The notes under the pieces are model-generated. The model was not told the DNA's origin and made no database searches. It was given only the letters and a program-made list of their open reading frames with translations. Of a stretch of DNA of 25,223 nt, positions 7,392-18,841 are shown piece after piece. Source of the stretch: a virus; IMG/VR virus record IMGVR_UViG_3300027971_000204, positions 1 through 25,223 of that record. One strand, 5' to 3'. The position numbers were made by a program, and so were the translations under genes. Each line of letters opens with the position of its first letter. Within the stretch, counting starts at the first letter, position 1.

Positions 7392-7433
7392 GACACGGCG
7401 TGTCGTATGTGATGTCCGTCACACGGCACGTGT
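7392..7433. promoter_or_regulatory. Cluster of palindromes incl. GlxR/CRP-type site
   Basis: Three inverted repeats in 42 bases: GACACG-G-CGTGTC (7392-7404), TGTGA-TGTCCG-TCACA (7408-7423, a perfect CRP/GlxR consensus) and ACACG-GCA-CGTGT (7421-7433). They lie upstream of the minus-strand promoter (site centre about 65 bases from its predicted start). Confidence 0.65.
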
Positions 7434-7509
7434 CAAATCGACACACCGATAACCTCACTATTGTTACGCAATCGTTATAATTCTCCCTAATAATGTGACC
7501 TACCTCTCA

Positions 7510-7589
7510 TGTGATACACCTCACAATGTCCTTAATGTCCGTTTTGCACCCCTCAATTTGTCAGACCCCCCTGCTATACTTACAGTATC
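7510..7589 (+). promoter_or_regulatory. CRP/GlxR-type site plus TTTGTCAG promoter
   Basis: TGTGA-TACACC-TCACA at 7510-7525, then TTTGTCAGACCCCCCTGC at 7557-7574 joined to TATACT (7575-7580). The -10 is followed by TAC and AGTATC, a near-perfect palindrome like those at 7349 and 8439. The leader of about 50 bases ends in GAAAGG before the ATG at 7636. Confidence 0.7.
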
Positions 7590-8293: not shown

Positions 8294-8593
8294 TAGTAAA
8301 GATCGCATGGATAAATTCCCTGCGATTTTTGCACGTGGCGGTTATCCACAGGGGGTGTGTATAACTAATGTGTTTAAGGTCACACTTTTATTTCCCCAAT
8401 TTACGGCGTGTCGATTTGCTTTTTTGACATTTCTTTGCTATACTTCTAGTATAACAATTAAATAAAGATAAATAAGCAATGAGCCTTAGCAAATAAATGT
8501 GACTAGTATCACAGTGAGCCTAAGCAAATAAGTGCCCAATTTGTCAGACCCCCCTGCTAGACTTACTATAACAACAAACGAAAGGTAGTCAAA
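8294..8593 (+). promoter_or_regulatory. 300-base regulatory region with two promoters
   Basis: In order: CACGTG (8332-8337), TTATCCACA (8342-8350), TGTGT-TTAAGG-TCACA (8369-8384, one mismatch to the CRP/GlxR palindrome), promoter TTGCTT-N17-TATACT with palindrome TATACT-TCT-AGTATA (8416-8453), two 17-base direct repeats TGAGCCTTAGCAAATAA and TGAGCCTAAGCAAATAA (8480-8496 and 8515-8531) that flank a perfect TGTGA-CTAGTA-TCACA (8498-8513), then TTTGTCAGACCCCCCTGC joined to TAGACT (8540-8563). GAAAGG precedes the ATG at 8594. No gene except a possible 5-codon frame at 8479. Confidence 0.65.
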
Positions 8594-8779
8594 ATGACTT
8601 ACACTATAACACTCGAAACCTTTAGCGGTTCGACTAAAAAAATCAACCTTGCCTCTAAAGGTGCGGTTGCTCAATTCATCTCAACTTATCCAACTCAACT
8701 ACCCGTTGGCGTTGCGGTTAAAGTATCCTGCGACCAATTAGGCGTTAGCGGAACACTAAGAGGAAAGGCGGTTCTCTAA
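8594..8779 (+). CDS. Hypothetical small beta-rich protein
   Basis: 61 residues starting MTYTITLETFSGSTKKINLA. Soluble, beta-strand-like, with many Thr, Val and Gly and no motif I recognise. ATG follows GAAAGG by 8 bases and the leader begins ACAACAAACGAAAGG, the same leader style as other genes here. The stop overlaps the next start (TAATG). First gene of the 8594-9341 operon. Confidence 0.65.
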   Translation: MTYTITLETFSGSTKKINLASKGAVAQFISTYPTQLPVGVAVKVSCDQLGVSGTLRGKAVL

Positions 8780-8934
8780 TGATAAACTCAGTAATGACAA
8801 TTCCTTGCGAGGAATGCCACTCAACAGGTTTAATCTTTTTTGGTGATAATGATAATTTCGATGTCGAAACTTGCGTATGCGATTTTGGTATGGAACAAGA
8901 CTTAAACTTATTTAACACCCCCGAAGCAAACTAA
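8779..8934 (+). CDS. Small Cys-containing protein, possible zinc binder
   Basis: 51 residues with CEEC-H near residue 10-14 (IPCEECHSTGLIFFGD) and CVC near residue 32-34. C-x-x-C plus C-x-C resembles a DnaJ-like or rubredoxin-like metal knuckle (the CxxCxSTG part recalls DnaJ repeats). Coupled to the upstream gene by TAATG. Confidence 0.6.
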   Translation: MINSVMTIPCEECHSTGLIFFGDNDNFDVETCVCDFGMEQDLNLFNTPEAN

Positions 8935-8952
8935 AGAATAGGAAATAGAACA

Positions 8953-9159
8953 ATGGTACAAATCGAACACAACTTAAAGTTTATCACCGAGGTAAACGAA
9001 AATCACCCAATCGGAAAATCACTTGTTGCACTAGAAAAAGAAATGCAAATTGTAATGCTTGAGTCAATGCTTAAGGATTTAATCGCTCCAAAGTTAGGAC
9101 CTATTCTTGATGAAATTAACGCAGGCGGTTCCTATGCAATTCTAAAGGTGGCCGAATAA
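8953..9159 (+). CDS. Hypothetical small helical protein
   Basis: 68 residues; the middle and C-terminal parts look like two amphipathic helices (SLVALEKEMQIVMLESMLKD and APKLGPILDEI). No motif recognised. ATG at 8953 has AGGAAA upstream. The stop and the next ATG overlap (TAATG). Confidence 0.6.
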   Translation: MVQIEHNLKFITEVNENHPIGKSLVALEKEMQIVMLESMLKDLIAPKLGPILDEINAGGSYAILKVAE

Positions 9160-9341
9160 TGATGACACGAAAAGACTATGTAGAAACTGCAAGCATTCTA
9201 AATAAATTTGCAGATACAATTGACTCACACACTTTTCAAGATTTAATTTTTGAATTTAGTGAATGGTTTAGCGCAGACAATCCAAGATTTGATGAAAATA
9301 GATTTTGGGACGCTTGCGTTAAAGAATTAGCAAACGCATAA
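9159..9341 (+). CDS. Hypothetical acidic small protein
   Basis: 60 residues, helical, rich in Phe, Asp and Glu, with WFSADNPRFDENRFWDACVK near the end. Two adjacent ATG codons exist (9159 and 9162) and AAGGTGG lies upstream; the second has the better spacing, the first the stop overlap. Function unknown. Last gene of its operon, followed by the GAGCA/TGCTC element. Confidence 0.6.
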   Translation: MMTRKDYVETASILNKFADTIDSHTFQDLIFEFSEWFSADNPRFDENRFWDACVKELANA

Positions 9342-9349
9342 ATAAAAAT

Positions 9350-9374
9350 CCTGAGCAAGATCTAAAACTGCTCA
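9350..9374 (+). repeat. Intergenic element CCTGAGCA...TAAAACTGCTCA (copy 1)
   Basis: GAGCA (9353-9357) can pair with TGCTC (9369-9373) around a loop ending in TAAAAC. The same layout appears at 12597, 13197 (imperfect), 13782 and 15018, always in the gap after a gene. It could be an RNA stem, a protein-binding site or a recombination seed. It lacks the T-run of a standard terminator. Confidence 0.65.
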
Positions 9375-9392
9375 ACACATCAAGAAAAAATG

Positions 9393-9456
9393 CACGTGCA
9401 GTTATCCACAGGTCAGACCAAGTTATCCACAGGCTTAAGATGTGAGATTTATCACA
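9393..9456. promoter_or_regulatory. CACGTG / two DnaA-type boxes / CRP-type palindrome cluster
   Basis: CACGTG at 9393-9398, TTATCCACA at 9402-9410 and 9423-9431 (same orientation, 21 bases apart), TGTGA-GATTTA-TCACA at 9441-9456. GTCAGACC also occurs between the boxes. Same order of parts as at 8332-8384 and 13829-13887. Confidence 0.65.
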
Positions 9457-9556
9457 CCCTCTGAGCGTCTCATTATTTAAGACTACTCGCTAGTAGGTTG
9501 ATAATTTATGAGTAATAGGCTAGACTTACATAGTAAGAAAAAATAAATAACCGAGA

Positions 9557-9580
9557 TTTGTCAGACCCTCATGGTAGGAT
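9557..9580 (+). promoter_or_regulatory. TTTGTCAG-type promoter (copy 3)
   Basis: TTTGTCAGACCCTCATGG followed by TAGGAT at the same 18-base distance as in the copies at 7557 and 8540. The -10 is weaker. The leader contains ACAAAAAGAAAGAGG before the ATG at 9613. Confidence 0.55.
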
Positions 9581-9612
9581 AGATTTAATAACAAAAAGAA
9601 AGAGGTCGCCCA

Positions 9613-9819
9613 ATGGCTACTAAACTATACACAATACAAGATTTACTAATTGGTAAAACTTATCGTTCACGAAATCGTCACTTTGAGGGAGAAATTGTAT
9701 CTGCCTCTCCACGCCCTGCAATTTGGTATGGAGAAAATACCGAAGCGTATGTCGTTGAAGTCTATGACCGCACTTTGCGAAATAAGTTTGCAACAGTAGC
9801 AGTAAAGGTTGGTGAGTAA
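9613..9819 (+). CDS. Hypothetical small beta-rich protein
   Basis: 68 residues: MATKLYTIQDLLIGKTYRSR then HFEGEIVSASPRPAIWYG, with strands typical of small SH3-like barrels. No family recognised. GAAAGAGG lies upstream of the ATG; the stop overlaps the next start (TAATG). First gene of an operon reaching 10730. Confidence 0.65.
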   Translation: MATKLYTIQDLLIGKTYRSRNRHFEGEIVSASPRPAIWYGENTEAYVVEVYDRTLRNKFATVAVKVGE

Positions 9820-10040
9820 TGAATAACGAATACCTATACGCAGTAACAGTATCGTATGATAGTAATCCTGTTCATTGGACAGGTCGCTATGCAGATGCAC
9901 TAAGTGCCGTTGATGAGTTTAATAAACACATTGATTGGGGATTTGCAGATGAGTATGCAACAGTTAATTTATCTGAGCCAAGTGGAAAGATGCACACCCG
10001 CACTTTCTATCGTGAAGGCAGAAGGGTTGTGACTAAGTAA
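9819..10040 (+). CDS. Hypothetical small protein
   Basis: 73 residues: VTVSYDSNPVHWTGRYADAL, then SAVDEFNKHIDWGFADEYAT; an alpha/beta protein with Trp and His, ending in basic REGRRVVTK. The pattern VTVSYDSNPV...DAL/EF is like small phage proteins that add a strand-helix-strand unit. No function known. TAATG overlaps on both sides. Confidence 0.6.
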   Translation: MNNEYLYAVTVSYDSNPVHWTGRYADALSAVDEFNKHIDWGFADEYATVNLSEPSGKMHTRTFYREGRRVVTK

Positions 10041-10204
10041 TGGAAATTTTTGAGTTTAATACTTTCATAAATGTCGAGGCAGAGTCGTATGATGAAGCCA
10101 TAGATGTCTTTCAATTCCAATTAAAGTATGGAATAAATAAAGATAATGTCTATGTCGCAGACATAAATCAATTAACTAACAACAACGAAAGTGTAGAGGT
10201 ATAA
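10040..10204 (+). CDS. Hypothetical 54-residue protein
   Basis: ATG at 10040 overlaps the upstream stop. The product MEIFEFNTFINVEAESYDEA, then IDVFQFQLKYGI, has the beta-helix pattern VEAxSYDEAI common to small phage proteins that carry a 'strand, AES-like loop, helix' unit; the protein at 13294 ends with a similar segment (VTVNARDEESAQ). Acidic; no catalytic motif. Confidence 0.6.
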   Translation: MEIFEFNTFINVEAESYDEAIDVFQFQLKYGINKDNVYVADINQLTNNNESVEV

Positions 10205-10207
10205 ATA

Positions 10208-10495
10208 ATGGGAAGCGTAACAGCAATTGGATTAGCAGATAGCGTCCTTGATTTAGAAACACAATTAGCGTATCACTTACAGGGTAATCACTATCCACCT
10301 GTTCCGCTTTCTATGGTGCAACCTTGCATAGATGCAATAGATGCATACTATGATGAGGACTATGACCGATTTATTGCTATGCCTGAAGGCGTATTCTATA
10401 AGGGCATGAGTCATGCACCTGCACACGCTATTGTTGACCAACACCACCTATCTTGGTTTATTGACCCAGTAGATAACTATGAAGATGAGGAATAA
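10208..10495 (+). CDS. Hypothetical acidic protein
   Basis: 95 residues, rich in Asp, Tyr and His (DAIDAYYDEDYDRFIAMPEG, then GMSHAPAHAIVDQHHLSWFI). The His/Asp content allows metal binding but no known motif fits. ATG 4 bases after the previous stop with AGAGGTATAA as a weak ribosome site. Confidence 0.6.
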   Translation: MGSVTAIGLADSVLDLETQLAYHLQGNHYPPVPLSMVQPCIDAIDAYYDEDYDRFIAMPEGVFYKGMSHAPAHAIVDQHHLSWFIDPVDNYEDEE

Positions 10496-10496
10496 A

Positions 10497-10730
10497 ATGT
10501 CTGCTACAATAAACAGTATGGAACTTAGATTTGCTGATAACTTATTGCCGTCTCAACTTATGGAAGGCGATCTAATCAAGGTTGATAATGAGTATGTAAC
10601 TATTGAAACCATTACAGAAAATGAAGATGGATTTAATATTTACACTAGAAATGATTTCAATGAAGAAGGTCACATTTATTTATTTGATGATGAAACTATT
10701 GAATGGTATGTATTCTTTCAAGAGGAATAA
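10497..10730 (+). CDS. Hypothetical acidic beta-rich protein
   Basis: 77 residues from the ATG at 10497, which follows GAGGAATAAA; an in-frame start 18 bases upstream would overlap the previous gene and lacks a site. The sequence LMEGDLIKVDNEYVTIETIT and then GFNIYTRNDFNEEGHIYLF looks like a small beta-barrel. No family recognised. Last gene of its operon. Confidence 0.6.
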   Translation: MSATINSMELRFADNLLPSQLMEGDLIKVDNEYVTIETITENEDGFNIYTRNDFNEEGHIYLFDDETIEWYVFFQEE

Positions 10731-10769
10731 TTTCTAAAGTATTTTTATGTGCTTCCCTGCATAAAAATG

Positions 10770-10842
10770 CACGTGTGGCGTTTGTGATATTGATCACATT
10801 TAAGATGTTGACATTTTTTCCCATGTATGCTAAGATTAATTT
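10770..10842 (+). promoter_or_regulatory. CACGTG, CRP-type site and leaderless promoter
   Basis: CACGTG (10770-10775), TGTGA-TATTGA-TCACA (10783-10798, perfect palindrome), TTGACA (10808-10813), 17-base spacer, TAAGAT (10831-10836), 6 bases, ATG at 10843. The palindrome centre is about 52 bases before the predicted transcript start. This gap joins the two promoter styles of the window: CRP-type site and leaderless start. Confidence 0.7.
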
Positions 10843-10989
10843 ATGAAGAAAAGTCCAGAGGAATTACGCAGGCTTATGGAATTACGCCGTAGCAATGCTG
10901 CCTCTGCCGTACCCTCTAAAAAATCCTACAACCGTAGAAAATGTCAGTCCGAAATGCTACAATTAAAGAACAACGAACAAGGAGAATAG
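10843..10989 (+). CDS. Small basic protein, possible nucleic-acid binder
   Basis: 48 residues, strongly basic in its first 35 (MKKSPEELRRLMELRRSNAA, then KKSYNRRKCQ). Charge and helical pattern suggest DNA or RNA binding, but no defined fold is visible. It begins exactly 6 bases after the -10, so it should be leaderless. The last codons (GGAGAATAG) supply the ribosome site of the next gene. Confidence 0.6.
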   Translation: MKKSPEELRRLMELRRSNAASAVPSKKSYNRRKCQSEMLQLKNNEQGE

Positions 10990-10993
10990 CCCC

Positions 10994-11170
10994 ATGGGAA
11001 ATATAATCGAAGAACTACCTGAATACGATGAATATTATTCTACAGTTTGCCCTAACTGTAATGAAAATAATGTAGAAGATGAAGAGCCTATTTGTGGTTC
11101 ATGCGCCCTTGATGAATTAGCAACCTCTTATGAAGACGCTGGTTTTGAAATGTGGCTTGGTCTTGAATAA
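10994..11170 (+). CDS. Acidic zinc-ribbon microprotein
   Basis: 58 residues with CPNC and CGSC pairs 12 residues apart, a zinc ribbon, in a strongly acidic context (many Glu, Asp). Ribosome site GGAGAATAG is 5 bases before the ATG. Its 3' end overlaps the next gene by up to 41 bases, depending on the start chosen there. Confidence 0.7.
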   Translation: MGNIIEELPEYDEYYSTVCPNCNENNVEDEEPICGSCALDELATSYEDAGFEMWLGLE

Positions 11171-11885
11171 ACTAAAACGCTCTAACGATAGAAAGGTCGC
11201 TAATCTTGTCACTAAAAATGGAAAGCAAGCCGCAATTGCCAACACCTTTGGATTACCTGCTGGAAAGGCTTACTCGTGCCCTGGTGCTACCAGTGTATGT
11301 GAGTCAGTCTGCTATGCGGGAAAACTCGAAAAGATCTTCCCTGGAGTAAGGACTAACTTACTACACAATTGGGCCCTGCTAAAAGACGCAGACTATTTAA
11401 CTATGCTTAATCTCATTGCTGAGATGATTGCTGATTTTAAGGCTGATTGTATAAAGAAAGACGCCCCTATGCTATTCCGCATTCATTGGGACGGTGATTT
11501 CTTTAATGATACTTATACCACTGCCTGGTCCGATGTAATTAAACTTAATCCTGATATTCAATTCTGGGTATACACTCGTGTGAAGAGTGCTGCTCTAATC
11601 CTTAAGGACATTGATAACCTATCTCTTTACTTTAGTACTGATAGTGAGAATGTAAAAATTGGTGTTGACCTAAAAATAAGTAGCGGTGTGCGTCTTGCAT
11701 ACCTTGCTAAAAATTTTGCTATTGGCCAGGCAGACATGAAAGAAATGATTGGTAAGCCTGGTGCTAAGTGCCCTGAAAATCTAAAAGCAATTCCACTTAT
11801 CTCATCCGCTGGCTCGGCTTGCGTTTCTTGCGGATTGTGTGTATACTCTAAAGCAGACATAGTTTTTTCTGCTACTAAGAAATGA
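11130..11885 (+). CDS. GP88-like protein (Cys-rich, possible Fe-S/radical-type enzyme)
   Basis: Up to 251 residues. The region SYSCPGATSVCESVCYAGKL (cysteines at 50, 57, 61), then LFRIHWDGDFFNDTYTTAW and FWVYTR, and a C-terminal CVSCGLC after a lone Cys-Pro, match my memory of the mycobacteriophage gp88 family (GP88). The Cys groups suggest one or two metal or Fe-S sites on a TIM-barrel-like fold; activity is unknown. The start is uncertain: ATG 11130 overlaps the upstream gene by 41 bases, while TTG at 11163 would overlap its stop by 8 and begins closer to the conserved part. Confidence 0.65.
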   Translation: MKTLVLKCGLVLNKLKRSNDRKVANLVTKNGKQAAIANTFGLPAGKAYSCPGATSVCESVCYAGKLEKIFPGVRTNLLHNWALLKDADYLTMLNLIAEMIADFKADCIKKDAPMLFRIHWDGDFFNDTYTTAWSDVIKLNPDIQFWVYTRVKSAALILKDIDNLSLYFSTDSENVKIGVDLKISSGVRLAYLAKNFAIGQADMKEMIGKPGAKCPENLKAIPLISSAGSACVSCGLCVYSKADIVFSATKK

Positions 11886-11891
11886 GATAAC

Positions 11892-11954
11892 ATGCGTATT
11901 ACTCAAGTTATACTTTTGTTTTGGTTGTTGCTTCTTTTATTTTTCCATCAATAA
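11892..11954 (+). CDS. 20-residue membrane peptide (tentative)
   Basis: MRITQVILLFWLLLLLFFHQ, one hydrophobic span with a basic N-terminus, beginning 6 bases after the GP88-like stop. A GAGATAAC ribosome-like site precedes it. Similar tiny hydrophobic peptides end operons at 8240 and precede the CDGSH gene at 24818. Such peptides could act on membrane proteins or lysis. Confidence 0.45.
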   Translation: MRITQVILLFWLLLLLFFHQ

Positions 11955-12124
11955 AATAAAAGAGGCCACGTCGCAAAGATCCAAGTTTGTCAAGTTTATG
12001 ATAGGCTTTTAAGATGTGATTAAGGACACACCGCAAATCCCCCGCTGGATTGGTATTTATGACATTTTTATGCTAAAATTATACTATAAGCAATTAACCC
12101 CCACAACAGAAAGGCAAGACCCAA
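11955..12124 (+). promoter_or_regulatory. Promoter region with CRP-like half-matched site
   Basis: TGTGA-TTAAGG-ACACA at 12015-12030 (one mismatch to TGTGA-N6-TCACA), TTATGA (12057-12062), 17-base spacer, TATACT (12080-12085). ATGACATTTTT in the spacer resembles the TTGACATTTCT block at 8424. The leader carries CACAACAGAAAGG before the ATG at 12125. Confidence 0.55.
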
Positions 12125-12295
12125 ATGACACTATCAGGATACACTTACCAAATCGGTGATTTATTCACAACAAGCAAGACAGGCGTTACAGGTCGTATCG
12201 CTGGTTTCGAGCCAATGTCTAATAAGGTTACTAGAGTTTCACTTGTCCTAGCAAACGGCTCTCGTCGCTTGGCTATGGTCAAGACCTCTAAGTAA
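12125..12295 (+). CDS. Small SH3-like protein, paralog A
   Basis: 56 residues: YQIGDLFTTSKTGVTGRIAG and onward to MVKTSK. It aligns along its length with the next gene product (YKVGDTFTTQKSKVTGTIVE, ending TTWTAK), so the two are tandem paralogs. The strand-turn-strand pattern suggests a small SH3-like barrel. GAAAGG precedes the ATG by 10 bases, and a perfect inverted repeat follows the stop immediately, as in the paralog. Confidence 0.7.
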   Translation: MTLSGYTYQIGDLFTTSKTGVTGRIAGFEPMSNKVTRVSLVLANGSRRLAMVKTSK

Positions 12296-12310
12296 TCTCA
12301 CAATGTGAGA
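12296..12310 (+). repeat. Inverted repeat right after stop
   Basis: TCTCACA-A-TGTGAGA begins at the first base after the stop codon. The paralog at 12402 has a different inverted repeat in the same place (12567). The centre is too short for a simple RNA loop unless the stem opens, so it may be a binding site. Confidence 0.55.
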
Positions 12311-12326
12311 AATGTCAGGTTTCGAT

Positions 12327-12365
12327 TTGACATTTTTACAACCAAAATGTTACACTTAGGTGTAA
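12327..12365 (+). promoter_or_regulatory. Promoter with TTACAC-N4-GTGTAA palindrome
   Basis: TTGACA at 12327-12332 and TACACT at 12351-12356 (18-base spacer); the -10 lies in a perfect palindrome TTACAC-TTAG-GTGTAA (12350-12365), a likely operator. The leader then has TAAACAGAAAAGAG before the ATG at 12402. Confidence 0.5.
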
Positions 12366-12401
12366 GCAAATAACAACCCCTAAACAGAAAAGAGAAAAAC
12401 A

Positions 12402-12566
12402 ATGTCAGTAGCAACAGCAACATACAAGGTCGGCGATACTTTCACGACACAGAAGTCAAAGGTTACAGGAACTATCGTGGAAATCAACCCACAAGCAAAT
12501 GGTAATGTTCGTGTAAAGTTAGATGTCAATGGACAGGCTCGTTACACAACTTGGACGGCTAAGTAA
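12402..12566 (+). CDS. Small SH3-like protein, paralog B
   Basis: 54 residues: MSVATATYKVGDTFTTQKSK, then VTGTIVEINPQ, NVRVKLDVNGQARYTTW. Clear relative of the product at 12125 over the whole length, so a tandem duplication. The pair differs most near the loop after the central strand, so their targets may differ. AAAAGAGAAAA is a weak ribosome site; promoter as described at 12327. Confidence 0.7.
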   Translation: MSVATATYKVGDTFTTQKSKVTGTIVEINPQANGNVRVKLDVNGQARYTTWTAK

Positions 12567-12623
12567 TCTAACAAGCCAGTTAGATAGTAACTTAGTCCTG
12601 AGCATGACTACTAAAACTGCTCA
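12567..12623 (+). repeat. Post-stop inverted repeat plus GAGCA/TGCTC element (copy 2)
   Basis: TCTAAC-AAGCCA-GTTAGA (12567-12584) starts directly after the stop, a 6-bp stem with a 6-base loop. It is followed at 12597-12623 by CCTGAGCATGACTACTAAAA joined to CTGCTCA, a copy of the recurring element with GAGCA/TGCTC ends. Confidence 0.6.
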
Positions 12624-12665
12624 ACACCCCCTAACAAATAACCCACAAAAGAAAAGAGAAAACAG

Positions 12666-13088
12666 ATGGCACGACAAAAAGCAATCTCAGTAAAGATACC
12701 TACACAGCGAGTTATTGACGCACTCACACAATCACTAGCAAAGTTAGAACTTGATTACACATCACAAGAAGCCAACGAAGCACGATACGAATTGCTACGC
12801 AAGGCATGGCAGAAGGAAGTGCAGGACTATGCTATTGCTAACATCAGTAAGGCAGAAAACTTCCGCACTAACTATCGCTCATGGAACAATAGTCTTAACA
12901 TTGACTTTGACCTAACAGTTACAGAAAAGGAAATGCCTAAAGAGCCTGAAAAGGATTTCGAGTCAGTATCTCTGTATAACTATCGTGAGCAGAAAGAGGA
13001 AATCTCTAACGCTATTCGTATTCTAAAGATGACAGATGAGGAAGTAGTTTCTACATCAACTTATCAAGCGGTATCTCGTTATCTATAA
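12666..13088 (+). CDS. Hypothetical phage protein
   Basis: 140 residues, soluble, largely helical, with near-balanced charge (PTQRVIDALTQSLAKLELDY, then NEARYELLRKAWQKEVQDYA). I believe related proteins occur in actinophage genomes, but I know no function. AAAAGAGAAAACAG before the ATG is the same leader style as the gene before. A GGGTGGGG/CCCCACTC hairpin follows the stop. Confidence 0.65.
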   Translation: MARQKAISVKIPTQRVIDALTQSLAKLELDYTSQEANEARYELLRKAWQKEVQDYAIANISKAENFRTNYRSWNNSLNIDFDLTVTEKEMPKEPEKDFESVSLYNYREQKEEISNAIRILKMTDEEVVSTSTYQAVSRYL

Positions 13089-13096
13089 ATGAGGTT

Positions 13097-13120
13097 GGGT
13101 GGGGTGTAAAAGCCCCACTC
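13097..13120 (+). terminator. GC-rich hairpin after gene
   Basis: GGGTGGGG (13097-13104), loop TGTAAAAG, CCCCACTC (13113-13120): an 8-bp stem with one G-T pair. No T-run follows, so it may be a Rho-independent terminator of the actinobacterial type or an RNA-stabilising stem. Confidence 0.5.
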
Positions 13121-13196
13121 CAATTCGCCAGGCTGATTAGGGCGATCATAGAAATACTATAGAGCCAGTTCACACCAACTGCAAGAAGTGTAACTA

Positions 13197-13263
13197 CCTG
13201 AGTAAGTATCAAAACTGCTCCCCACAAGGGTCCTTGACAAATGTCAGTGGTACCCAGTACAAT
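13197..13263 (+). promoter_or_regulatory. GAGCA-like element (copy 3, imperfect) and promoter
   Basis: CCTGAGTAAGTATCAAAACTG then CTC at 13197-13220 is a degenerate copy of the recurring element. TTGACA (13234-13239), 18-base spacer holding ATGTCAG, TACAAT (13258-13263). The leader has ACAGAAAGAGG before the ATG at 13294. Confidence 0.6.
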
Positions 13264-13293
13264 TGAATTAACCAACTACAGAAAGAGGCCCCC

Positions 13294-13722
13294 ATGGACC
13301 AAACAGAAACATCAGTAACAGTAATACCAAACACAACGCAAGAATTCCTTCAGTCTCAAATTAAAATCAAAGATGAGCGCATTGCTCAACTTGAGGAGCA
13401 CATCCAAAAAGTAACTCAGCGCTCATATGCAGATTCTGCAGACCGTAACCGAATTACAGAAGACATGCAAGAGTGGACCCTTAAGGCTTTAGAGGAAGGG
13501 ACTATCAACGAATCAGAAGCAGAAGAGATTGCGGAAATCGTTGGATTCGAATTAACAAAAGAATTTGAATTAGAAGTTACAGTTCTTTATTCGGTAACCG
13601 TTAATGCTCGTGATGAAGAGTCTGCACAGAATTTAATTCACGATATTGATTTTGATACCGTTCAATATAACTCAGATAATATTTCTTGGTTATCATCCAG
13701 TATTGACAGAATAGATATTTAG
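13294..13722 (+). CDS. Hypothetical coiled-coil acidic protein
   Basis: 142 residues. Residues about 20-45 form a coiled coil (QSQIKIKDERIAQLEEHIQK). The C-terminal 50 residues (ELEVTVLYSVTVNARDEESA then QNLIHDIDF) form a strand-helix unit seen in other small phage proteins, and resemble the protein at 10040. Strongly acidic overall. GAAAGAGG precedes the ATG. No enzymatic motif. Confidence 0.65.
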   Translation: MDQTETSVTVIPNTTQEFLQSQIKIKDERIAQLEEHIQKVTQRSYADSADRNRITEDMQEWTLKALEEGTINESEAEEIAEIVGFELTKEFELEVTVLYSVTVNARDEESAQNLIHDIDFDTVQYNSDNISWLSSSIDRIDI

Positions 13723-13781
13723 TAGGGGGCTACTAATACAACTGGCCACCGTACAGCCAGTATAAATAAGTGGCGAAACAT

Positions 13782-13806
13782 CCTGAGCACGATGTAAAAC
13801 GGCTCA
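13782..13806 (+). repeat. GAGCA/GGCTC intergenic element (copy 4)
   Basis: CCTGAGCACGATGTAAAACG followed by GCTCA. GAGC pairs with GCTC around a loop ending TAAAAC, as in the other copies. It begins the regulatory cassette before the DUF932 gene. Confidence 0.6.
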
Positions 13807-13828
13807 CTTTTAAATTCCCAAAAATTTA

Positions 13829-13956
13829 CACGTGGGGTTATCCACAGGTTATCCACATGATTAAGGTCACATGTGTTTAAGATCACCTTACGATATGTCC
13901 TAATTGCCCCATGTTTACTTATACGATTTGACTTTGTCAGTCCCGCCATGTATACT
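13829..13956 (+). promoter_or_regulatory. CACGTG / two DnaA-type boxes / CRP-like site / TTTGTCAG promoter
   Basis: CACGTG (13829-13834), TTATCCACA at 13838-13846 and 13849-13857 (11 bases apart, about one helical turn), TGTGT-TTAAGA-TCACC (13872-13887, degenerate palindrome), TTGACT (13928-13933), spacer of 17 made of TTGTCAGTCCCGCCATG, TATACT (13951-13956). The leader AACAACAACAGAAAAGG ends before the ATG at 13990. It is the fullest version of the intergenic cassette. Confidence 0.7.
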
Positions 13957-13989: not shown

Positions 13990-15006
13990 ATGGCACATGA
14001 AATCGAAACACAAAATGGTAAGGCTTCATTCGCATCATTTCGTGAACCCGCTTGGCATGGATTGGGTACCGTATTTACAGAAGAAAAAACAACCGCAGAA
14101 ATGCTACAGGCTGCAAGCCTTAATGGTTGGAATGTTCGTCTGGAAGATTTGGAAACCCCTACACATCTAACAAGCGACAAAAACTATCAGTATGTTTTGC
14201 GTACTAACCCAACAGATAACTCTCAGACCGACATTCTTGGTGTCGTTGGTGAGCGTTACCATGTAATGCAGAATGAAGATTTATTCTCATTCGGTGACAA
14301 CATTCTTGATGGTGGTGGTCGTTGGGAGACGGCTGGTTCAATCAAGGGTGGTCGTGTCGTATTCGGTGCGTTAGCACTAGAGCGTGAAACAATTCTTGAC
14401 CCTAACGGTGTTGCAGATAAGGTAAAGACTTATTTACTTATCAACACATCACATGATGGTTCAATCGCTATTCAAGCAAGCATCACACCTGTTCGTGTTG
14501 TGTGCGCTAACACTCTTAATCTTGCACTTAACACAACCAAAAAGAAAAACGGCGTTAAGCAATCATTCAAGATTCGTCACACACAGACAGCAAGCGGTAA
14601 GGTAGCCGTTGCTCGTGAGACTCTTGGCATGGCTCATAAGTACATGGACTCTTTTGACCTCATGGCTAAGGCTATGATTGAAAAAGAAATCACCGCCATT
14701 GACTTTAACAAAATCATTCTTGCTGCTTATCCTAAGCCAGAGGCAGATGCTAAGGGTGCTTTCAAGAAATGGGAAAACAAGGTAGATACAATTAACGACA
14801 TCTATACAGGCGAGTTTAATGGTATGATTGCTGGTAATGCGTGGGGTGCTTTCAATGCACTTACTGAACGCCTTGACTGGCACCGTTCTGCTCGTGGTGG
14901 TTCTAACGAATCCATTCTAGCATCAGCATCAGGATTTGACCCTGCTATCAACGCAGAAAAAAATCGTTTGCTAAAAGTTGTGCAAAATGTTTTGCAGATT
15001 GCATAA
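13990..15006 (+). CDS. DUF932 phage/plasmid-like protein
   Basis: 338 residues. The N-terminus MAHEIETQNGKASFASFREP followed by AWHGLGTVF is diagnostic of the DUF932 (phage/plasmid-like, TIGR03299) family. The middle (VRVVCANTLNLAL) and the region before the C-terminus also fit, and length is typical. These proteins are common in phages and plasmids of actinobacteria; the role is not settled, with DNA replication or recombination often proposed. It has the most elaborate promoter cassette in the window and an AAAAGGAA ribosome site, suggesting high or tightly controlled expression. Confidence 0.85.
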   Translation: MAHEIETQNGKASFASFREPAWHGLGTVFTEEKTTAEMLQAASLNGWNVRLEDLETPTHLTSDKNYQYVLRTNPTDNSQTDILGVVGERYHVMQNEDLFSFGDNILDGGGRWETAGSIKGGRVVFGALALERETILDPNGVADKVKTYLLINTSHDGSIAIQASITPVRVVCANTLNLALNTTKKKNGVKQSFKIRHTQTASGKVAVARETLGMAHKYMDSFDLMAKAMIEKEITAIDFNKIILAAYPKPEADAKGAFKKWENKVDTINDIYTGEFNGMIAGNAWGAFNALTERLDWHRSARGGSNESILASASGFDPAINAEKNRLLKVVQNVLQIA

Positions 15007-15017
15007 CTAAAAAAGTT

Positions 15018-15041
15018 CCTGAGCAAGAATTAAAACTGCTC
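15018..15041 (+). repeat. GAGCA/TGCTC intergenic element (copy 5)
   Basis: CCTGAGCAAGAATTAAAACT followed by GCTC. Nearly identical to copy 1 at 9350. It ends 4 bases before the tRNA-Asp gene, so it may also help process the transcript. Confidence 0.65.
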
Positions 15042-15045
15042 GCAT

Positions 15046-15119
15046 GGAGTGTTAGCATAGTTGGTTAATGCGCTACCCTGTCACGGTAGAGATCACGGGT
15101 TCAAGTCCCGTACACTTCG
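15046..15119 (+). tRNA. tRNA-Asp (anticodon GTC)
   Basis: Complete cloverleaf of 74 bases: acceptor GGAGTGT/ACACTTC (one G-T pair), anticodon stem CTACC/GGTAG around CTGTCAC with anticodon GTC, T-arm CGGG-TTCAAGT-CCCG, discriminator G. CCA is not encoded. It supplements the host pool for Asp codons. It lies between the GAGCA element and a CACGTG site, as if inserted into an intergenic cassette. Confidence 0.93.
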
Positions 15120-15274
15120 CAAAATTGCCACGTGTGAAAATTAGTACAAATCGGACATAAAAATGTCAAATAAAAAAATCTTTACGAAGACTATAAAAGA
15201 TCCCCCAAAATGTCAAACCATAAAATCTTTACGATAGAGTTGACATTTCCCCTAGATTGTGCGATAATTAATAC
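15120..15274 (+). promoter_or_regulatory. CACGTG, imperfect direct repeat and leaderless promoter
   Basis: CACGTG at 15129-15134. Two imperfect copies (15160-15192 and 15207-15240) share AAAATGTCAAA and AAATCTTTACGA, spaced about 47 bases. Then TTGACA (15240-15245), 17-base spacer, GATAAT (15263-15268), 6 bases, ATG at 15275. Confidence 0.6.
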
Positions 15275-15606: not shown

Positions 15607-15826
15607 GTATACATTTGTTTGTGACCCTGATGAGTGTGATGCTCTTCTTGAGTTTACCGCCAGGGATGGCTTTGGCTTTCCTTTGGGATCTGTAAAGATG
15701 ACCTGCCCCTGTGGACGCAAGATGGCCTATATTGGTTATGAAGATGCTTGGGAGCCTATCCTTGCAGATGTGACGAAGGTCACACCCCGTACAGTTGTCA
15801 AAATCAACACCAACCCGTATAATTAA
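15596..15826 (+). CDS. Cys-containing small protein, probable zinc binder
   Basis: 76 residues. Cysteines: FVCDPDECDALLE and later MTCPCGRKM, giving C-x4-C plus C-x-C, a zinc-binding arrangement. ATG overlaps the preceding gene by 11 bases. Its 3' end contains a perfect TGTGA-N6-TCACA palindrome and the -35 and -10 of the next gene, so this coding sequence doubles as a regulatory region. Confidence 0.65.
   Translation: MWSKYTFVCDPDECDALLEFTARDGFGFPLGSVKMTCPCGRKMAYIGYEDAWEPILADVTKVTPRTVVKINTNPYN
15769..15823 (+). promoter_or_regulatory. CRP-type site and promoter inside coding sequence
   Basis: TGTGA-CGAAGG-TCACA at 15769-15784, TTGTCA (15795-15800), 17-base spacer, TATAAT (15818-15823), 7 bases to the ATG at 15831. 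Palindrome centre about 54 bases upstream of the predicted start of transcription. All but the end of the -10 region lies within the preceding gene. Confidence 0.6.
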
Positions 15827-15830
15827 TACT

Positions 15831-15986
15831 ATGAACCCAAACACACTGATAGAGTATATAAAGATAAACATCATCTCTCTAGAGCAAGACCTAGAAAACG
15901 AGGACGGTGCTGATAGCATTGTTCCTTACCTTGAAGGTGCCATTGATGTATCCCGCCATTATTTGGAGGCAGTCAATGGAGAATAA
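15831..15986 (+). CDS. Hypothetical acidic small protein
   Basis: 51 residues from ATG 15831, chosen because TATAAT lies 7 bases upstream; an in-frame GTG-type extension back to 15795 would overlap the promoter. Product MNPNTLIEYIKINIISLEQD, then EGAIDVSRHYLEAVNGE. Helical, acidic. Unknown role. The stop overlaps the next gene by 11 bases. Confidence 0.6.
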   Translation: MNPNTLIEYIKINIISLEQDLENEDGADSIVPYLEGAIDVSRHYLEAVNGE

Positions 15987-17916: not shown

Positions 17917-18041
17917 GTGCATTATCATTCAACAAACCATCAAACCTTATATCTAAAAGACATTACGAACCTCCAAACCTTTCCCCCTCCAAAACATTAC
18001 GATCCAAACCTTTATTTCCCCAATGGTGGTATAATTTGTAT
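17917..18041 (+). promoter_or_regulatory. Repeat-rich gap with leaderless promoter
   Basis: Contains CAAACCTT (17941) and two CCAAACCTTT words plus ACATTACGA at 17960-17968 and 17994-18002. Ends in GTGGTATAAT (TATAAT 18030-18035) exactly 6 bases before the ATG at 18042. Confidence 0.6.
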
Positions 18042-18293
18042 ATGAGTCCTAGACACTTTGCTAAATATGCTAAACAAGATCCTAAACAATATAAGGCATT
18101 CTCTGATTCTATGTGGAATGGTTTTGTATCTGCTACTAAGCATGTTCCCTTTATGGGTAAGTTCTTTTCTTTCACTCCCGCCCCAGAAATCCTTAATAAT
18201 CCTATTAGTAATGGCGAAGCCATTGGTGTTGCGCTTGGAGATCTCTACGATTTATCGCAGGGGATAGACAAGCAAGAACCACCAGTAGAATAA
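18042..18293 (+). CDS. Hypothetical basic-aromatic protein
   Basis: 83 residues: MSPRHFAKYAKQDPKQYKAF, then SDSMWNGFVSATKHVPFMGK. The N-terminal half is basic and aromatic. The leaderless promoter sets the start; an open frame extending upstream to 17901 crosses it. Ends in a Pro/Glu-rich tail. No known family. Flanked on both sides by the ACATTACGA and AAGGTTTG repeats and followed by a strong terminator. Confidence 0.6.
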   Translation: MSPRHFAKYAKQDPKQYKAFSDSMWNGFVSATKHVPFMGKFFSFTPAPEILNNPISNGEAIGVALGDLYDLSQGIDKQEPPVE

Positions 18294-18365
18294 CAAACCA
18301 TTATCTCCTGGTTTCTTTAAATAACATAAAGGTTTGTTTAAAAAACATTACGATTATCGACAATT

Positions 18366-18391
18366 TCTCCCTGGTTTTGGGAGATTTTTTT
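18366..18391 (+). terminator. Rho-independent terminator
   Basis: TCTCCC (18366-18371), loop TGGTTTT, GGGAGA (18379-18384), then seven T (18385-18391). It is the clearest standard terminator in the window and ends transcription from the gene at 18042. Confidence 0.8.
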
Positions 18392-18416
18392 ATGTGGTTT
18401 TAAGGTTTGAAAGGAC

Positions 18417-18445
18417 TTGACAAACCATTATATCTGTGATATCAT
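18417..18445 (+). promoter_or_regulatory. Orphan sigma70-type promoter, possible ncRNA or primer
   Basis: TTGACA (18417-18422), 17-base spacer, TATCAT (18440-18445). Downstream, 18446-18700 contains no coding frame of useful size but does contain the palindrome, the CTCCACT repeats and the DnaA-type boxes. It could make a small RNA or a replication primer. Confidence 0.5.
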
Positions 18446-18588
18446 CCGCTGCGAGGATATAAGGTTTGAAGGTTTGACAATATGAAGGTTTTGTGATAGG
18501 AGGTTTGGGGCCCCAAGACATTACGAACGCCTCTATAAAAGCGCTCCATCCTCCACTAGTCTCCACTTCACTCCACTTCTACCCTATC

Positions 18589-18841
18589 TAATAATATTAT
18601 CAGTAAGATTATTATGTGGATAAACCTGTGGATAACTTCTTAAGTAAAGGCTAAGAAACCTTAAGTAAAGGCTAAGAACCTGTGGATAACTCTCTGATAT
18701 ACTTAGTATATGACAGAACAAACCGAAGAAAAGATCCCAGGATATAAGCAAAACCCTCCTGATTGGTGTGATGATTGTACTATCCAAGATAGTGTTTGTA
18801 CAATATGTGGCTGTAGCCATAACTGCTAAACCTGTGGATAA
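18589..18841. other. Candidate replication origin: DnaA-type boxes, 21-bp repeats, AT-rich inverted repeat
   Basis: TAATAAT...ATTATTA inverted repeat (18589-18595 and 18608-18614), then TGTGGATAA at 18615-18623, 18627-18635, 18681-18689 and 18833-18841, all in one orientation. Two direct repeats of TTAAGTAAAGGCTAAGAA (18640-18657 and 18661-18678, 21-base period) lie between boxes 2 and 3. TGTGGATAA is the complement of the DnaA consensus TTATCCACA. A gene (18710) lies inside. Confidence 0.5.
18710..18829 (+). CDS. Cys-rich microprotein, likely zinc or Fe-S binder
   Basis: 39 residues: MTEQTEEKIPGYKQNPPDWC, then DDCTIQDSVCTICGCSHNC. Seven... in detail CDDC, CTIC, GC and a final C make six cysteines after the Trp plus the final one, packed in 20 residues, typical of a compact metal knuckle. 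Leaderless: TATACT (18698-18703) lies 6 bases before the ATG. A DnaA-type box occupies the place of a -35 element, so DnaA or its target may control it. Confidence 0.65.
   Translation: MTEQTEEKIPGYKQNPPDWCDDCTIQDSVCTICGCSHNC

Follow-up and report, generated by a model that had tools for sequence, protein, structure and literature searches.

What are the sequence blocks that recur between the genes of the virus record IMGVR_UViG_3300027971_000204 in IMG/VR? The window analysed here is a 25,223-base virus fragment (37.7% GC; the whole stretch), and its gaps repeat a GAGCA/TGCTC element, DnaA boxes, CRP-type TGTGA-N6-TCACA sites and promoter blocks containing TGTCAG. The original prediction saw in them copies of one regulatory unit. 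We propose, with a probability of about 0.6, that these gaps form composite boundaries between operons in an early-type region, each built as a closure of the upstream message followed by a host-sigma promoter with sites for host regulators. The evidence is entirely sequence-based. What is seen here comprises the parts and their order, the pairing, strand and position of an RNA pseudoknot, the helical spacing of the CRP-type sites, and relatives' contigs in which neither CRP nor DnaA was found.

Recurring parts and their order

Measured against a second-order Markov model, the parts are strongly over-represented in the window, with nine exact copies of the DnaA box consensus TTATCCACA (0.46 expected), six TGTGA-N6-TCACA sites (0.03), four copies of the arm AAAACTGCTC (0.07), four of TTGTCAGNCC (0.22) and seven of TTGACATTT (0.72); the TTGTCAG block is among the motifs far above expectation. 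The positions originally assigned to the parts are correct. For comparison we assembled 81 contigs, consisting of the window and 80 contigs fetched by homology to its DUF932 protein (13990-15006). Choosing them through this protein kept the selection independent of the motifs under test. Related contigs do not provide independent copies, a problem that is reduced by grouping promoters into 37 families and by a separate count on 41 sequences. Genes were called with a simple purpose-built codon model.

Counted on distinct contexts in the 81 contigs, DnaA boxes number 270 in noncoding and 10 in coding sequence (33-fold denser outside genes), TGTGA-N6-TCACA sites 264 and 16 (21-fold), and the GAGCA/TGCTC element 259 and 1 (222-fold), while TGTCAG and TTGACA promoter blocks are 3- to 4-fold denser outside genes. 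The idea that the parts might lie equally inside genes, which would have told against a regulatory cassette, fails on these densities. CACGTG, which had been listed among the parts, lies in gaps in seven of its eight window copies, but is just 1.6-fold enriched across relatives (42 noncoding, 33 coding), and we reject it as a core part. Other six-base GC palindromes are enriched outside genes (GACGTC 44:4, GGCGCC 43:2, CCTAGG 91:53), and several of them stand between pseudoknot and DnaA box, at the place that CACGTG takes in the window.

The expected conservation of part order in relatives holds across 403 distinct promoters of the TGTCAG type, each taken with its upstream 260 nt. The pseudoknot precedes the DnaA box in 79 cases and follows it in none, precedes the CRP site in 81 and follows it in one, and the DnaA box precedes the CRP site by 129 to 26. 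DnaA boxes and TGTC-GACA sites occur in mixed order, and CRP sites are usually closest to the promoter. Mapping of orthologous genes places the parts before genes a, d, h, p, q, s and t, and rarely before the internal genes c, g, k, l and x, which bears out the description of the gaps as modular regulatory regions at operon boundaries. In three large contigs (109-115 kb) the parts are concentrated in one region of about 15-25 kb. The promoter cassette of gene h (9613) is retained in every rearranged relative examined.

The claim that the cassettes are copies of one unit is not supported. Exact intragenomic repeats of at least 24 nt number only three in the 81 contigs, so recent duplication is rejected: cassettes within one genome share parts, not recent descent. 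Cassettes at the same site in different relatives keep their ends, and the middle is largely replaced. Before DUF932, median identity among relatives is 83% in the pseudoknot and 79% in the promoter block, against 60% in the middle (52% when shuffled), and a few clear block swaps are seen. A second repeat family, CATTACGA with TCAAACCTT/AAGGTTTG, fills gaps at 17961-18526; its ACATTACGA (105 noncoding, 6 coding) belongs to the noncoding 9-mers with the strongest enrichment in relatives.

A pseudoknot behind the stop codon

The GAGCA/TGCTC element had been described as a stem within the promoter cassette. It is a real recurring element, but not a plain stem, and it belongs to the upstream gene; judged by covariation, it is an H-type RNA pseudoknot with two interleaved helices. 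Helix S1 appears in relatives, in which the bases preceding CCT complement those following GAGCA-N-G. With S1 left free in the selection of copies, S1 positions 2-4 are Watson-Crick paired in 99, 97 and 70% of 156 distinct copies, compared with 51, 32 and 35% in shuffled copies and 24-36% when the register is slid. In the separate count of 41 sequences, which included unrelated contigs, S1 was 96.7% paired versus 78.7%, with a covariation of 0.497 versus 0.154 and at most 0.121 in slid registers. S1 covaries in 42 distinct triplets, and the outer pair of S2 occurs as GC, AU or GU. This covariation rules out a simple stem-loop. The format is 4+5 bp in 27-32 nt, NNNC-CU-GAGYA-N-GNNN-(N)nAAAC-UGCUC, with L1 always CU, a one-base L2 and an L3 that usually ends in AAAC; the S1 sequence is free, and L1 CU, S2 GAGYA/UGCUC and L3 AAAC are nearly invariant.

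In all 367 scored pseudoknots the nearest upstream gene is on the same strand, and the element mostly lies 3-20 nt past its stop codon. The window has five, all on the plus strand: 9346-9373 after gene 9159-9341, 12593-12622 after gene 12402-12566 (the next gene, 12666, has no promoter before it), 13193-13220 after gene 12666-13088, 13778-13805 after gene 13294-13722 (S2 with a GGCTC variant) and 15014-15041 between the DUF932 gene and tRNA-Asp(GTC), which follows directly at 15046-15120, 4 nt on. Slots without a pseudoknot hold hairpins instead, identified by fold and sequence on the same strand: a terminator-like hairpin followed by a T-tract (8297-8332), a terminator-like hairpin with A/T tracts (10739-10770) and an AT-rich hairpin (11930-11967). 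The gap at 8332-8593, once counted among the fullest cassettes, accordingly lacks the GAGCA/TGCTC element, and the T-tract hairpin takes its place. In many relatives a TTTAGTAGGGGGCTACTAATA hairpin (window 13720-13741) is found at the stop codon of the gene preceding DUF932, either overlapping it or immediately behind it.

The arrangement at 15014-15120 is conserved: tRNA-Asp follows the pseudoknot at 3-9 nt in 57 distinct loci. A promoter would not fit into this interval, so the pseudoknot must be transcribed through and is not a strong terminator. Another 44 copies sit in promoterless gaps of less than 70 nt. An intrinsic terminator is ruled out by this read-through and by the presence of a T-run behind only 21% of copies. 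We also discount a signal for stop-codon readthrough or frameshifting, since the DNA downstream is promoter and not coding sequence. The placement fits the definition or protection of 3′ ends better than termination, and protection is the role we favour. The pseudoknot would block 3′-to-5′ exonucleases and so set a stable mRNA 3′ end, and RNase P cleavage at the abutting tRNA-Asp, as RNase P biology suggests, would place it at the extreme 3′ end of the DUF932 mRNA.

The strongest competitor, which we consider possible and somewhat less probable than 3′-end protection, is that the pseudoknot serves as an RNA operator bound by a protein, as does the pseudoknot in the T4 gene 32 leader, or as a factor-dependent terminator. 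A protein ligand would require just the observed pattern of invariant L1, S2 and L3 bases with a free S1, yet these bases could equally make tertiary contacts. Termination is suggested by the T-tract hairpins that fill the slot in the window where the pseudoknot is missing; the scarcity of T-runs, the read-through into tRNA-Asp and the copies in short promoterless gaps argue against it, as does a bacterial locus (L358) in which the pseudoknot stands between the stop codon and a separate hairpin resembling an intrinsic terminator.

That locus illustrates how far the element extends. A motif scan of IMG/VR with S1 left free recovered the full pseudoknot in 104 of 118 loci and CCT in 202 of 204 copies, on contigs of 0.30 to 0.64 GC that include some without any other cassette part. 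It also occurs in 8 of 397 genomes from the phylum of an Actinomycetota metagenome-assembled genome (G013), and the reversed pattern occurs in none. Most bacterial copies follow a conserved mini-open reading frame of 18-20 codons (consensus RF-x-IPR-x-AHC-x-x-GC), such as VKRFMIPRTAHCSEGCMVWS, whose stop codon overlaps the pseudoknot, and MPRFTIPRVAHCDKGCIV; examples are L358 (6420-6501) and L360 (6559-6638), together with L348 and L351-L354. In some genomes it appears to sit after serS or cysK, named from their translations, and its peptide has no match in Pfam. Rfam 15 has no family at the window's pseudoknots, which are of a length that covariance models handle poorly, and in the bacterial loci gives just a chance-level overlap with Leu_leader (24.9 bits, cut-off 50). 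No described case was found in the literature searched, which left out most subscription journals, and the pseudoknot itself appears to be new as an RNA element. We suggest tentatively, at somewhat less than even odds, that it represents a widespread, compact RNA family of 3′ untranslated regions that stabilises or defines mRNA ends in phages and some bacteria, that can stand in for terminators here and that is linked to RNase P processing where a tRNA abuts.

Promoters and probable host-regulator sites

The downstream half of each boundary is centred on a promoter with the core wwTGTCAG-N10-TAnaaT, supplemented by TTGACA upstream in some cases and by an extended -10 in others. The spacer contains TGTCAG at about -28 to -23, 16 nt before the -10, so TTTGTCAG is usually not a -35 box. 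The proposed ACAACAGAAAGG leader is loosely defined and A-rich, with a ribosome-binding site, and the exact 10-mer AACAGAAAGG occurs once. CRP-type sites are placed regularly with respect to these promoters. In 37 promoter families, defined by the downstream proteins, their centres lie at -64.5, -74.5 and -84.5/-85.5 from the inferred starts (R=0.67 at 10.5 bp), and before the same promoter in different relatives the site shifts by whole helical turns. For strict sites R is 0.76, against 0.19 for an AAATTT decoy. Helically phased upstream CRP sites are the geometry of class I activation, and by position the TGTGA-N6-TCACA sites appear to conform to it.

In the window, promoters and DnaA boxes of this region are on the plus strand, and CRP-type sites near promoters are centred at -52.5, -53.5, -63.5, -64.5, -69.5, -74.5 and -84.5, values that agree with the series seen across the promoter families, with a single site at -69.5. 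Upstream of gene 7636, a CRP/GlxR-type site TGTGATGTCCGTCACA (7408-7423, from the motif count) for which no in-phase promoter was found and an inverted-repeat site TGTCAAATCGACA (S part; 7431-7443, from sequence and enrichment) precede a CRP/GlxR-type site at -69.5 (7510-7525) and the core TGTCAG-N10-TATACT (7559-7580). The next gap combines a DnaA box (8342-8350), a CRP-like site TGTGTTTAAGGTCACA (8369-8384) at -74.5 relative to the -10 at 8439, a promoter TTGACA-N17-TAGTAT (8424-8452) overlapped by an extended -10 TGCTATACT (8436-8444), a CRP/GlxR-type site at -64.5 (8498-8513) and the core TGTCAG-N10-TAGACT (8542-8563) before gene 8594. Before gene 9613 come two DnaA boxes (9402-9410 and 9423-9431), a CRP/GlxR-type site (9441-9456) at -84.5 from the promoter TTGATA-N17-TAGACT (9498-9526), and the core TGTCAG-N10-TAGGAT (9559-9580). 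Gene 12125 is preceded by a CRP-like site TGTGATTAAGGACACA at -63.5 (12015-12030) and TTGGTA-N18-TAAAAT (12050-12079), gene 12402 by TTGACA-N18-TACACT (12327-12356), and gene 13294 by TTGACA and TACAAT with TGTCAG in the spacer (13234-13263). The DUF932 gene (13990) has two DnaA boxes (13838-13846 and 13849-13857) and TTGACT-N17-TATACT (13928-13956) with TGTCAG in the spacer (13935-13940).

Two further promoters (10808-10845 and 15795-15833) have an inferred start that coincides with an ATG and a CRP-type site at about -53, which suggests leaderless mRNAs. The first is TTGACA-N17-TAAGAT (10808-10836; ATG 10843) with its site at 10783-10798 (-52.5), and the second (15795-15823; ATG 15831) has its site at 15769-15784 (-53.5).

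Which proteins would read these sites? The window comes from an actinophage of a WhiB-encoding, probably freshwater group. Its DUF932 protein shares about 53% identity with proteins of Streptomyces phages, actinophages make up most of the matching records, and WhiB, which the freshwater literature uses as an actinophage marker (PMC6802176, PMC10202952), is present in 11 of 12 relatives' contigs of 68-115 kb. The host is likely to be a freshwater actinobacterium. A possible host clue, TTTGTCAAGTCGACACGCC, had one match in 257 Gb of genomes (about 1.9 expected), within the start of scpA in a metagenome-assembled genome, which is chance and has no bearing on the host. Neither CRP, DnaA nor sigma70 region 4 was found in any of the 12 large contigs, which may be incomplete, and no phage sigma factor was detected in them. 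The absence of CRP and DnaA implies host proteins at the CRP-type sites and DnaA boxes.

We therefore favour composite boundaries with the following working. Just past the last stop codon the upstream message would be closed by the 4+5-bp pseudoknot or a T-tract hairpin, and the next operon would start from a host-sigma promoter with an extended -10 and/or TTGACA and with TGTCAG in its spacer. A host protein of the CRP/GlxR type would most likely activate it from about -64, -74 or -84, host DnaA may bind the boxes further upstream and modulate transcription, and TGTC-N5-GACA is a putative site for a further factor. Several points weigh against this. The argument for an exonuclease block is the position of the pseudoknot, and protein binding would look identical. 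Start sites were inferred from -10 boxes, and the CRP and DnaA consensus that was scored may not match the preferences of the host. Helical phasing is not seen for DnaA boxes (R 0.21), and a minor class of CRP sites, at -69.5/-70.5, falls out of phase. An ATGTCC decoy also clusters (R 0.50), because promoter regions are conserved and the decoy likewise sits at fixed positions.

The lack of phasing of DnaA boxes also feeds the view that these boxes and the TGTGA palindromes are decoys titrating host DnaA and CRP, or parts of a replication origin, which we regard as unlikely. Each genome has several perfect boxes, and in the window four minus-strand boxes lie away from the cassettes at 18615-18841, three of them within 75 bp (18615-18690), possibly a replication origin. 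Against a decoy or origin role, the CRP sites are phased to promoters across 37 families, and the DnaA boxes hold a preferred order relative to the other cassette parts. Still less likely are mobile units that chiefly provide homology for gene shuffling between phages: the cassette kept with gene h, the conserved ends with replaced middles and the few clear block swaps would suit them, but there is little repeated sequence to recombine, gene order among relatives is largely conserved, and recombination alone would not yield part spacing tuned to the promoter.

If the boundaries work as proposed, phages of abundant, hard-to-culture actinobacteria are predicted to use cAMP-CRP and DnaA of the host to set the timing of their early operons, which would tie infection to the nutrition and replication state of the host. 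The pseudoknots themselves provide hundreds of natural 27-32-nt elements at gene ends that are easily testable in any bacterium, with the gene-pseudoknot-tRNA arrangement as a natural control.

Relation to known systems

Short repeated elements beside non-structural genes of actinophages are familiar from the SAS/ESAS elements of cluster K mycobacteriophages, in which SAS, 13 bp long, lies 3-7 bp ahead of start codons and has a proposed translational role (PMC3203893). The present parts share this setting; SAS GGGATAGGAGCCC, an element of start-codon regions, has two matches at three mismatches here, with 2.4 expected, which is not above chance. The CRP-type sites resemble class I sites of Escherichia coli CRP and Corynebacterium GlxR in sequence (TGTGA-N6-TCACA) and in stepping outwards from -64 by about 10 bp, but are phage-borne, and their centres, taken from inferred start sites, lie about 2 bp beyond the canonical -61.5 series. 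Minimal H-type pseudoknots, such as those of the T4 gene 32 leader, luteovirus frameshift signals and preQ1-I, have two short interleaved helices, a 2-nt L1, a 1-nt L2 and an A-rich L3, as here. Unlike them, the present pseudoknot lies 3′ of genes past the stop codon, occurs many times per genome, conserves other bases and has no Rfam match.

The best-scoring cultured relative through DUF932, Streptomyces phage Riptide (PV654398; 53%), has an analogous cassette. Its early gaps likewise repeat a GGGCCCTTCGGGGCCC-type hairpin, a GC block GGCCGCCCCGGCC, CGGACAT, a TAGACT-type -10 and a GAAAGG leader, and its CAAAACGGACAT matches ATGTCCGTTTTG of the window in reverse complement. The first 20 kb of Riptide contain GC hairpins, with no pseudoknot, DnaA box or TGTGA-N6-TCACA site.

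The closest known kind is the promoter early stem-loop (PeSL) of T4-type phages, a mobile promoter-terminator cassette held to mediate shuffling (Arbiol et al. 2010 and Comeau et al. 2014, as cited in PMC4503421). As to whether the window phage itself could be T4-type, the observations that bear on it are the mostly actinophage DUF932 matches and WhiB in 11 of the 12 contigs. As far as PeSLs are characterised in that account, both systems place a 3′-end structure and a promoter between genes of a variable region; the present cassettes differ in their actinophage setting, in having a pseudoknot in place of a stem-loop, in their additional CRP, DnaA and TGTC-GACA sites, and in copies that are not near-identical within a genome. 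The resemblance is in layout and not in copy identity. Given this, and given Riptide gaps that lack the pseudoknot, DnaA and CRP parts, we place the cassettes as a variant of a known promoter-terminator layout, in which the pseudoknot is the part that looks new.

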